Below, piece by piece: positions 1,377 to 4,353 of a stretch of 64,000 nucleotides of DNA (the stretch's first letter is position 1; every line of letters starts with the position of its first letter). The translations under genes and the position numbers were made by a program. Source of the stretch: Acidimicrobiaceae bacterium (GTDB lineage Bacteria > Actinomycetota > Acidimicrobiia > Acidimicrobiales > Poriferisodalaceae). The notes below the pieces were generated by a model. That model saw only the letters and a program-made list of their open reading frames with translations. It was not told the DNA's origin and did not search any database. The DNA lies in NCBI GenBank assembly GCA_026713105.1, contig JAPOPC010000002.1, positions 1 through 64,000 of the forward strand, given 5' to 3'.

Positions 1377-1859
1377 CTATCGCTGTTGCTGGCGTTGGAC
1401 GAAGCGAATGATCCGCATGGTGTCCTGGGCCGTGATTCGACCGATGGGACCGGTCGAGTAGCACGCCTGGGCCACCTTGCCCCCTGGCGCCAGCACGAAC
1501 CCGGTGGCGTGCAGGATGCCGCGCTTGGCCTCGGTGAAAGCCCCCGTCGCGGCAGACACCTCGTCGGCGTCGGCGCTGTGCAGCATCCGCACAGGGCCGA
1601 GTTGCAGGTTGTCGGCGAGGCGCTGGGTGGTGTCCTTGTCGTCAATCGACAGCGCTACCACGCTGGCGCCCAGCATCTTCAGCAGTGATGCGGTGCCGTT
1701 GAAGTCAACCAACTGTTGACGGCAGTACGGTCACCAGTGGCCCCGGTACATCAGCACGACGCCCCAGCCGTCGCCGAAGACCTCGGGAATGGTGACCTCT
1801 TGGTCGTCCAGATCGCTCAGGGTGATCTGGGGGAACGCATCTCCGGTGTCGAGTTTCAT
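1377..1859 (-). CDS. Peroxiredoxin-like selenoprotein candidate (in-frame TGA)
   Basis: Read with TGA 1733-1731 as selenocysteine, the frame runs 160 residues from ATG 1859 to TAG 1379-1377. The N-terminal part MKLDTGDAFPQITLSDLDD is the AhpC/TSA entry strand. Residues 37-49 read MYRGHWUPYCRQQ, matching the YRGHWCPYC active site of thiol peroxidase-like AhpC/TSA proteins, with U (residue 43) exactly at the peroxidatic cysteine and a resolving Cys at 46 (UxxC). Both halves stay in one frame with family-like sequence (ALSIDDKD, FTEAKRGILHATGFVLAPGG, TGPIGRITAQD). An AGGAAGG ribosome site lies 11 bases before ATG. A simple TGA-truncation reading would give a 42-residue stub. The likely role is reduction of peroxides in the cytoplasm. 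Other genes here use TGA as stop, so the code itself is not changed. It is divergent from the sterol reductase at 1947. Confidence 0.8.
1694..1733 (-). promoter_or_regulatory. Putative bacterial SECIS hairpin
   Basis: Directly after the UGA the message can fold as UGCC/GGCA plus GUCAAC/GUUGAC, with a five-base AGUUG loop and a 3'-side bulge. The loop lies 17-21 bases after UGA (1714-1710). Bacterial SECIS elements bound by SelB sit just 3' of the UGA with a small GU-containing apical loop at about this distance. The fold was made by eye and needs an energy calculation. Confidence 0.6.
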
Positions 1860-1946: not shown

Positions 1947-3083
1947 ATGATCGATTGGCTCGGCATCGACCACCTGTTCAAGTTGTCCGCTGGCGAGGCG
2001 GTGATGGGCTTCCTGACGCCGCTGATCGTCTGCGCTGCGGTGTTCGTTGCGCACATGATCCTGCCCGCCCGGCGGGTGACCGGCTACGCCACCAACCGCG
2101 AGACCGGCGAGCCCCGCAGCTACCGGCTCAACGGCGTGCTGGTGTTCGCCCTGGCGCACATCGTGTGGGCATTCGAGCTCACCGGCATGCCGCGCGACTG
2201 GTTCTACCGGTCGACCATGTACGCCATCTTGGGCGGGCTGATCACCGCCGTCATCGCGACGACCATCGTGGTGTTCAGCCAGCCCGAGGGCTCCCAGAAG
2301 AACCCCTTCTTGGCATGGTGGTTTGGTCGTGCGCAAGAGATGCAGTTCTTCAACAACCGCTTCGACCTCAAGATGTACTTCTACATCGTCGGCGGCACGA
2401 TGCTGTCGCTCAACGCGTGGTCCGGGGCGGCGTGGCACATCGACGCAGTCGACGATGTCAACCCCGGCTTGATCCTCTACGTCGCCATCAACTCCTTCTA
2501 CGTCTTCGACTACTTCGTGTGGGAACGGGTGCAGCTCTACACCTACGACCTCATCCACGAGAACGTCGGATTCAAGCTCGTCTGGGGCGGGCCTTTCGTA
2601 TGGGGCTGGATGTTCGTGCTGCCGCTGTGGGGCTTGGCGCCCGTTGCCGATCCGGGATTCTCCGGCGGACCGATGTACTTCTGGCTGATCGGCTGCGCCG
2701 CACTGTTCCTGGTGGGCTGGACGATCTCTCGCGGCTCGAACATGCAGAAGTACACGTTCAAGCGCTGGCCTGAGCGGAAGTTCCTCGGCATCTTCGAGCC
2801 GGAGGTGATCGAAGCCGGCGACCGCAAGATCTTGTGCAGCGGGTTCTGGGGCAAGGCAAGGCACTTCGGCTACTTCGGCGAAGGCCTGTACGGAATTTCC
2901 ATGGCGCTGGTATTCGGGCACTTCACCAACCTGTGGTCCTGGACATATGTGGTGATGATCGTGACCTTCTTCGTTCCTCGCCAGTTCGAGGACGACAGGC
3001 AATGCGCCGAGAAGTACGGCGAAGAGAAGTGGGCTGAATACCAGGCCCGAGTTCCCTACCGGATCATCCCGGGCATCTTCTAG
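1947..3083 (+). CDS. ERG4/ERG24-family sterol reductase, copy 1
   Basis: 378 residues, multi-pass membrane protein of the ERG4/ERG24 (C14, C7 or C24(28) sterol reductase) family, which reduces sterol double bonds with NADPH. Family marks are LTGMPRDWFYRS near residue 80, QKYTFKRWPE near 270, and the C-terminal CAEKYGEEKWAEYQARVPYR followed by IIPGIF. The conserved RHxNYxGE cofactor segment reads RHFGYFGE, so the Asn is replaced by Gly. A ggaaggg ribosome site precedes the ATG. It is followed after 39 bases by a paralogue, evidently a co-transcribed pair. Which double bond is reduced cannot be decided; action on another isoprenoid is possible. Confidence 0.85.
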   Translation: MIDWLGIDHLFKLSAGEAVMGFLTPLIVCAAVFVAHMILPARRVTGYATNRETGEPRSYRLNGVLVFALAHIVWAFELTGMPRDWFYRSTMYAILGGLITAVIATTIVVFSQPEGSQKNPFLAWWFGRAQEMQFFNNRFDLKMYFYIVGGTMLSLNAWSGAAWHIDAVDDVNPGLILYVAINSFYVFDYFVWERVQLYTYDLIHENVGFKLVWGGPFVWGWMFVLPLWGLAPVADPGFSGGPMYFWLIGCAALFLVGWTISRGSNMQKYTFKRWPERKFLGIFEPEVIEAGDRKILCSGFWGKARHFGYFGEGLYGISMALVFGHFTNLWSWTYVVMIVTFFVPRQFEDDRQCAEKYGEEKWAEYQARVPYRIIPGIF

Positions 3084-3122
3084 AGGCGGTCGGCTGAACC
3101 GGCAGCGGAAAGGAAGCCAGCG

Positions 3123-4256
3123 ATGTTCGAATGGCTCGGCGTAGAGCACTTGGTCGAGCTGACTGCGGGCGAGGCGGTGCTGGGGTTTCTCACACCGCTG
3201 TTCGTGTTCGTCGCCTTCTTCGTGCTGCAGATGGTGCTGCCGGGAAAGCGCGTCCCCGGCTACGTCGTCGACAGCAAGACCGGCCAGCCCCGCAGCTACC
3301 GGCTCAACGGCTTGCTCGTGTTCGTCGTGGCCCAGGTGCTGTGGTGGTTCGAGCTCACGGGCATGCCGCGCGACTGGTTCTACCGCTCATCGCTGTACGC
3401 CGTGGCGGGCGGCACGGTGCTGGCCGTCATCATGACGCTGATTGCCGTGTTCAGCCAGCCAGAGGGAGACGTCAAGAGCAAGTTTCTGGCGTGCTGGTTC
3501 GGGCGCGCCCAAGAGATGCAATTCTTCAACGACCGCATCGACTTGAAGATGTATTTCTACATCGTCGGCGGCACGATGCTGTCGCTGAATGCCTTCTCCG
3601 GCGCGGTCTGGCACTACGACAACTTCGACGACCCGAACCCGGGCGCCTATCTCTTCGCTGCGTTCTTCACGTTCTACGTGTTCGACTACTTCGTGTTCGA
3701 ACGAGTGCAGCTCTATACCTACGACGTCATCTACGAGCGCCTCGGCTTCAAGATGTTCTGGGGGGCGCTCATCGTCTACGGCTGGATGTTCATCATCCCG
3801 ATGTGGGGCATGGCCGCGCATGCCGACCCCCCGCACGCAGGCGCCTGGCGGTATCTCTGGCTGATCGTGACGCCGGTGCTGTTCGTCGTGGGCTGGTGCA
3901 TCAGCCGTGGCGCCAACACGCAGAAGTACACGTTCAAGCGATGGCCTGAGCGCGCCTTCCTGGGCATCAGGCCAGAAATCATCGAGGCCGGCGAGCGCAA
4001 GATCCTGTGCAGCGGCTTTTGGGGCGCATCCCGGCATCCCAACTACCTGGGCGAGGGCTTCTACGGACTGGCCCTCGCCTTGAGCTGGGGCCACCTCGGC
4101 AACCTTTGGGCGTGGGTCTATTTCGGTTACGTCCTCGCTCTGTTCACCTACCGCCAGATGGACGATGACAAACGTTGCGCAGAGAAATACGGCCCTGACA
4201 AATGGGCGGAGTACCGGCGGCGAGTGCCCTACCGGATCATTCCCCGCATCTACTGA
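3123..4256 (+). CDS. ERG4/ERG24-family sterol reductase, copy 2
   Basis: 377 residues, collinear with the upstream copy over its whole length and clearly a tandem duplicate. It keeps the canonical RHPNYLGE cofactor segment and the VPYRIIPRIY end that copy 1 partly alters, so this may be the standard enzyme and copy 1 a diverged one. There are about nine hydrophobic segments. An aaggaa ribosome site lies before ATG 3123. The family acts in sterol or related isoprenoid reduction in the membrane. No sterol-forming cyclase is seen in the window, so substrates could be imported sterols. Confidence 0.85.
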   Translation: MFEWLGVEHLVELTAGEAVLGFLTPLFVFVAFFVLQMVLPGKRVPGYVVDSKTGQPRSYRLNGLLVFVVAQVLWWFELTGMPRDWFYRSSLYAVAGGTVLAVIMTLIAVFSQPEGDVKSKFLACWFGRAQEMQFFNDRIDLKMYFYIVGGTMLSLNAFSGAVWHYDNFDDPNPGAYLFAAFFTFYVFDYFVFERVQLYTYDVIYERLGFKMFWGALIVYGWMFIIPMWGMAAHADPPHAGAWRYLWLIVTPVLFVVGWCISRGANTQKYTFKRWPERAFLGIRPEIIEAGERKILCSGFWGASRHPNYLGEGFYGLALALSWGHLGNLWAWVYFGYVLALFTYRQMDDDKRCAEKYGPDKWAEYRRRVPYRIIPRIY

Positions 4257-4279: not shown

Positions 4280-4353
4280 TGGGCGCTGCAGGACTCGAAC
4301 CTGCGACCCCCTCCTTGTAAGGGAGGTGCTCTCGCCAGCTGAGCTAAGCGCCC
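4280..4353 (-). tRNA. tRNA-Val (anticodon UAC)
   Basis: A 74-base cloverleaf. The acceptor stem is GGGCGCT/AGCGCCC with discriminator A. The D-arm holds AGCTCAGCTGGCGAGAGC, the anticodon arm is CCTCC-CTTACAA-GGAGG with anticodon TAC, and the T-arm is GCAGG-TTCGAGT-CCTGC. The 3' CCA is not encoded. Confidence 0.95.

Follow-up and report, generated by a model that had tools for sequence, protein, structure and literature searches.

We analysed a stretch of 64,000 nucleotides (the window) from the genome of an Acidimicrobiaceae bacterium, a draft assembly of 3.96 Mb in 117 contigs that is 94% complete. On the minus strand of the window, between positions 1859 and 1377, lies a frame of 160 codons followed by a stop. 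It begins with ATG at 1859 and runs through 41 more codons to a TGA (1733-1731), and then through 117 codons to a TAG (1379-1377). The TGA is the sole interruption of this frame and, when read as selenocysteine (Sec), gives a protein of 160 amino acids containing YRGHWUPYCRQQL, in which Sec43 and Cys46 (TGC, 1724-1722) make up a UxxC site. We refer to it below as the putative gene of a Prx-like UxxC selenoprotein. An earlier note on this DNA, made from the letters alone, had pointed to a ribosome site ahead of the gene; a likely one, the stretch AGGAAGG (1877-1871, minus strand), ends 11 nt before the ATG, and it recurs exactly, at most 30 nt upstream, in six of nine same-genus relatives.

The gene is flanked by a divergent ERG4/ERG24-type membrane reductase (1947-3083, plus strand; Pfam PF01222, E=2.3e-33), which adjoins the selenoprotein gene in all ten same-genus loci, our own included; it is a conserved neighbour that stands outside the mechanism discussed here. 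Two such reductases, of 378 and 377 amino acids, lie in tandem at 1947-4256, the first assigned via Pfam and the second via a 61% match to the first over 79 residues. On the other side, a FlK-like thioesterase (882-1229; PF22636) is convergent with the selenoprotein gene and is found near it in nine of the ten same-genus loci. A tRNA gene (4280-4353, minus strand; 71.8 bits) was the only hit of an Rfam scan of the window at the gathering cut-off.

One coding frame spans the TGA

We found that the two sides of the TGA belong together. Taken alone, the 42 codons before it gave no Pfam match (E<=0.001), and those after it, 117 in number, matched AhpC-TSA (PF00578) with 28.9 bits; joined across the TGA, they matched the same family with 63.4 bits (E=2.6e-17). 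Third-position G+C is similar before (0.86) and after (0.84) the TGA, which argues for one coding frame. Both flanks are under purifying selection: in 45 pairs of ten same-genus sequences, median dN/dS was 0.22 for codons 1-42 (range 0-0.45) and 0.073 for codons 44-159 (range 0.016-0.23). All three measures agree with the note's view of a single frame that continues through the TGA and ends in TAG. A composition scan of the window for recoded TGA codons returned eight candidates, among them the codon for Sec43 and one opposite it on the other strand; only the Sec43 candidate has UxxC.

A mechanical ORF finder, however, yields in this frame an ORF of 111 amino acids starting from TTG at 1712, as could be expected if the locus held two genes, one for a 42-residue peptide and another for a downstream protein. 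We consider this extremely improbable. The UxxC/CxxC site and the first strands of the fold precede TTG 1712, and three of four homologues with Cys in place of Sec read straight through this point, the fourth (L042) being cut by Ns. Since the Cys homologues read through and the halves jointly form one Pfam domain, we rejected the two-gene reading. The 111-residue ORF bears out the prediction of the earlier note that automated annotation would truncate the gene.

Conservation of the TGA in relatives

To see how the codon is represented elsewhere, we searched 198 related genomes, our own included (E<=1e-10). Homologues were present in 25 of them, with TGA at codon 43 in 21 and TGC (Cys) in the other four; Trp was found at this codon in none. 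The genus is represented by 11 genomes (again counting our own), of which 10 carry the gene, all with TGA; the other nine proteins are 76-79% identical to that of the window; the eleventh genome, which is 84% complete, gave no match. The remaining 11 TGA carriers come from eight further genera and are 39-50% identical.

Relatives are sparse in wider samples. In the class sample, 4 of 395 genomes matched at E<=1e-20 (three with TGA, including our own, and one with Cys), and in the sample drawn from the phylum, matches at E<=1e-15 came from 3 of 396 genomes (our own with TGA, two with Cys); the two relatives from beyond the order in these samples, whose codons we read, are Cys forms. A pattern scan of named genomes gave 39 matches with one relative among them, a Cys form (37%) from Gluconacetobacter sacchari. 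A plasmid search returned 33 records, all below 60% identity, of which the best 15 were annotated as redoxin or peroxiredoxin-type or had no listed gene. A literature search on Acidimicrobi together with selenocysteine and selenoprotein found nothing.

If the TGA were instead a former Cys codon, altered by mutation in a pseudogene or by a sequencing error, a single base change from TGC or TGT would suffice, and the genome is a draft. This explanation has next to no likelihood. The same TGA recurs in 20 other assemblies, and the homologues that carry it come from seven families of the order; moreover, selection acts on either side of it. In practice the conserved TGA refutes a pseudogene or an error, and we rejected this explanation. 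Disrupted frames in relatives had been named in the earlier note as a finding that would speak against Sec; the comparison of relatives instead favoured the note, with TGA at this codon in 21 of the 25 homologues. The locus thus combines an in-frame TGA, a frame conserved on both sides and an exchange of Cys and Sec among homologues.

Selenocysteine machinery in the same genome

As the earlier note had proposed, we searched the genome for selA, selB, selD and tRNA-Sec and found all four. tRNA-Sec (67 bits in Rfam; identified by ARAGORN as tRNA-SeC with anticodon TCA) lies on contig C37, together with selB (274 bits) and selA (383 bits), which are neighbours; selD (361 bits) is on contig C31. 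A second match above the Rfam cut-off for tRNA-Sec is an ordinary tRNA-Ser, and we therefore count one tRNA-Sec. The lack of selB or tRNA-Sec, which the note had regarded as fatal to its proposal, was not observed. The selD gene (L018:1501-2445; G000:C31:10934-11878) has an in-frame TGA of its own in HGAG-U-ACK, at the usual Sec/Cys site of SelD; judging by this TGA, SelD of the same genome is probably also a selenoprotein.

Among the relatives, selA was found in all 21 TGA carriers (in G107 as a fragment below the cut-off) and in three of the four Cys carriers, that is in 24 of the 25 genomes with a homologue, the Cys carrier G118 not being among the matches. However, 131 of the 198 genomes carry selA overall, including about 107 of the 173 without a homologue. 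The Sec machinery is, thus, necessary for the gene yet a weak predictor of its presence.

The open frame would also be explained if UGA were read as another amino acid, through a reassigned code or near-cognate readthrough, because the TGA by itself names no residue. We judge this very improbable. Of the long frames in the window (40 with at least 250 codons from stop to stop, largely non-overlapping), 30 end in TGA, which is also the final stop of 10 of the 25 homologues themselves; it is therefore an ordinary stop in this code, and we rejected reassignment. The presence of tRNA-Sec, SelA, SelB and SelD, with Cys and never Trp at the codon in homologues, likewise argues against another residue. 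The claim of the earlier note, Sec insertion, is thus supported by the conserved TGA, the Cys/Sec exchange and the machinery, and we regard it as near certain, on this comparative evidence, that the gene encodes a selenoprotein.

A hairpin with frozen codons follows the TGA

The earlier note had also described a SECIS-like hairpin, which is indeed present in the window sequence (1720-1704, minus strand). It would have a 6-bp stem, GUCAAC/GUUGAC (1720-1715 with 1709-1704), closed by the loop AGUUG (1714-1710), which starts 16 nt after the UGA. The constraints on bacterial SECIS elements given in the review PMC13188914 are a loop of 3-9 nt, a stem of 4-16 bp, a G among the first two nucleotides of the loop, a distance of 16-37 nt from the UGA and a minimum free energy of at most -7.5. 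The hairpin fits them, with its 6-bp stem, 5-nt loop, distance of 16 nt and a fold of -12.2 kcal/mol over 43 nt. The folding energy itself is unremarkable (z of -1.07; an equally good fold in 28 of 200 shuffles), so the case for the hairpin rests on codon conservation and not on energy.

This conservation is unusual. In a set of 12 sequences (that of the window and 11 from outside its genus; nine genera), codons +4 to +9 after the TGA read CGT CAA CAG TTG GTT GAC in all but three cases, of which two are at +5 and one is at +8. CGT, TTG and GTT each account for no more than 12-15% of the synonymous codons in the rest of these genes. The product of probabilities for the frozen codons in this set, calculated from the genes' own codon usage and ignoring shared ancestry, is about 1e-38. 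A pattern search allowing up to two mismatches matched 29 of 397 genomes of the order, and the reversed pattern, used as a control, gave 0 in every genome among those listed. All 28 matching loci beyond that of the window read as members of the Prx-like family. A mismatch was permitted in the initial TGA as well, yet this codon is intact in each of the 29 matches. In our own genome, no second copy of the hairpin was found with up to three mismatches; only the selenoprotein gene matches.

Pooling the pattern-search loci with the 21 found by homology gave 33 distinct TGA members. Codons +5, +7 and +8 are identical in 28, 31 and 31 of them, and codons +4, +6 and +9 (CGT, CAG and GAC) in 33 of 33; the block is, thus, nearly frozen across lineages with only 39-50% protein identity. 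In contrast, all seven Cys homologues that we read (L033, L038, L042, L043, L044, L045 and L046) differ in this block, with other codons and other residues.

Owing to this near-invariance of the helix, evidence from covariation is thin: among the 33 sequences there is one two-sided change (in L034), with 5 of 198 cells unpaired, and the observed score was reached by 35 of 500 shuffles (26 of 500 in the set of 21 sequences). When three alternative stretches were folded, the minimum-energy structure included all six hairpin pairs in 15, 11 or 10 of the 21 sequences. RNAalifold favours a competing fold in which the UGA pairs with part of the hairpin (columns 2-27 of alignment A4; window 1732-1707, minus strand), possibly a switch for readout or, alternatively, a mere by-product of invariance. 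The evidence for the frozen codons is, thus, strong, and the exact shape of the hairpin is less certain. Tentatively, and at somewhat less than even chances, we propose that, in this order, the near-invariant 17-nt SECIS of the Prx-like gene is read by its sequence as well as by its shape. The residues RQQLVD behind the active site would then have been fixed by the signal in the RNA and not by catalysis; the codons common to all 33 TGA members and replaced in all seven Cys homologues would be consistent with this. Alternatively, the codons may be frozen simply because the members of the Sec clade share an ancestor.

Active site and fold

The earlier note had described a UxxC arrangement in a peroxiredoxin-like protein, with the TGA in place of the peroxidatic cysteine. 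The first two of these assignments held: the site reads U43-P-Y-C46, and besides the PF00578 match, the best fold matches are peroxiredoxins. The AlphaFold2 model (pLDDT 93.2), in which the first long helix begins at residue 44, was compared with the PDB using Foldseek; peroxiredoxins scored best (3hjp, TM 0.83), with Bcp, AhpC and 1-Cys Prx types leading and ResA-type chains within the top 50 (4nmu at rank 23).

The assignment of Sec43 as the peroxidatic residue, however, had to be rejected. In HMMER alignments to solved peroxiredoxins (2cx3, 6q5v and 5xbs), the Pro of the PxxxTxxC motif is matched by R39, its Thr/Ser by Sec43 and its Cys by Cys46, which puts Cys46 and not Sec43 at the peroxidatic position. 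The protein thus keeps the Cys of the canonical site and has neither its Pro nor its Thr. The conserved Arg also has a role in canonical peroxiredoxins; the one preceding the late strand of these structures aligns with H117 or A118. In alignments to the ResA proteins 3c71 and 4nmu, Sec43 and Cys46 fall on CxxC. We further aligned 25 proteins, namely the 21 TGA forms, three of the four Cys relatives (L042, cut by Ns, was excluded) and L044 from Gluconacetobacter. R39, G40, W42, U/C43, C46, F53, S71, D73, D97, G140 and R141 are invariant, and positions 43 and 46 are the only invariant Cys/Sec columns; therefore, residues 43 and 46 are most likely the redox pair.

Discussion

Taken together, these results point with high probability to a selenoprotein of 160 residues with a thioredoxin/peroxiredoxin fold, in which Sec would be inserted at UGA 43 with the help of the hairpin and would act as a redox pair with Cys46. 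As to function, the protein is likely a thioredoxin-like UxxC thiol-redox enzyme. In the mechanism that we envisage, SelB would bind the hairpin and bring Sec-tRNA to UGA 43. The selenolate of Sec43, whose place directly ahead of the first long helix resembles that of CxxC sites in thioredoxin, would then attack an oxidised substrate, either a protein disulfide or a peroxide. Cys46 would close a selenenylsulfide with Sec43, which a thioredoxin-type reductant could open again.

The same selenoprotein might instead be a true peroxidase, with Cys46 as the peroxidatic and Sec43 as the resolving residue. The alignment of Cys46 with the peroxidatic Cys and the Bcp/Prx types as closest folds would fit such an enzyme, and we see roughly one chance in three for it. 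It is, however, normally Sec that makes the attack. In the window protein, three positions of the peroxiredoxin site carry other residues (in place of Pro and Thr in PxxxTxxC, and of the Arg ahead of the late strand); for this reason, we consider thiol:disulfide-type chemistry somewhat likelier than that of a dedicated peroxidase.

Known redox proteins offer several comparisons. PrxU shares the peroxiredoxin fold and an active-site Sec, but its Sec occupies the peroxidatic position (TxxU), where the window protein has Cys46; Sec of the latter takes the place of the Thr, three positions nearer the N-terminus, and the PrxU profile NF040737 matched 13 of the 25 aligned members weakly. ResA/TlpA thiol:disulfide oxidoreductases have a similar fold and a WCxxC that aligns with WUxxC (4nmu and 3c71), whereas the best fold and most sequence matches of the window protein are Bcp/Prx; by eye, no signal peptide or anchor was evident at its N-terminus. 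SelL has UxxU, whereas the window protein has one Sec, and the SelL-related profile NF040769 matched it weakly (23.7 bits, far under the cut-off of 120). No NCBIfam model reached its cut-off, leaving the protein unnamed by any model there.

The closest counterpart is the Prx-like selenoprotein family described from the Sargasso Sea as distant peroxiredoxin homologues with a thioredoxin-like UXXC where Sec-containing peroxiredoxins have TXXU (PMC1088965), a definition that the window protein matches. The family recurs as 'Prx-like 1' (pfam00578, UxxC, 225 sequences) in the GOS data (PMC2398784) and as 'Prx-like thiol:disulfide oxidoreductase' in PMC13188914; PMC1794560 counts 8 Prx-like selenoproteins and, for Actinobacteria, gives 12 selenoprotein families, and PMC5029168 counts 32 Prx-like selenoproteins in 28 organisms. 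Compared by these descriptions (PMC1088965, PMC2398784 and PMC13188914), the gene shares PF00578, a UxxC that replaces TxxU/TxxC, Cys homologues and a bacterial-type SECIS with the family, and differs in that the present clade has a near-invariant SECIS hairpin. It therefore fits the published description as one more member of an established kind, and the list of selenoprotein kinds is unchanged.

The locus is, thus, of an ordinary kind, and its use lies in being a clean case. With it come 33 sequences that carry the TGA, our own included, all from the same order and the same Prx-like family, and its unusually frozen hairpin may offer a clean test system for recognition by SelB outside E. coli. 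The finding matters mainly in that an apparently interrupted gene is, on the sequence evidence, intact: automatic annotation would halve such genes, and this one is a well cross-checked example of how ORF calling severs an intact gene at its active site.
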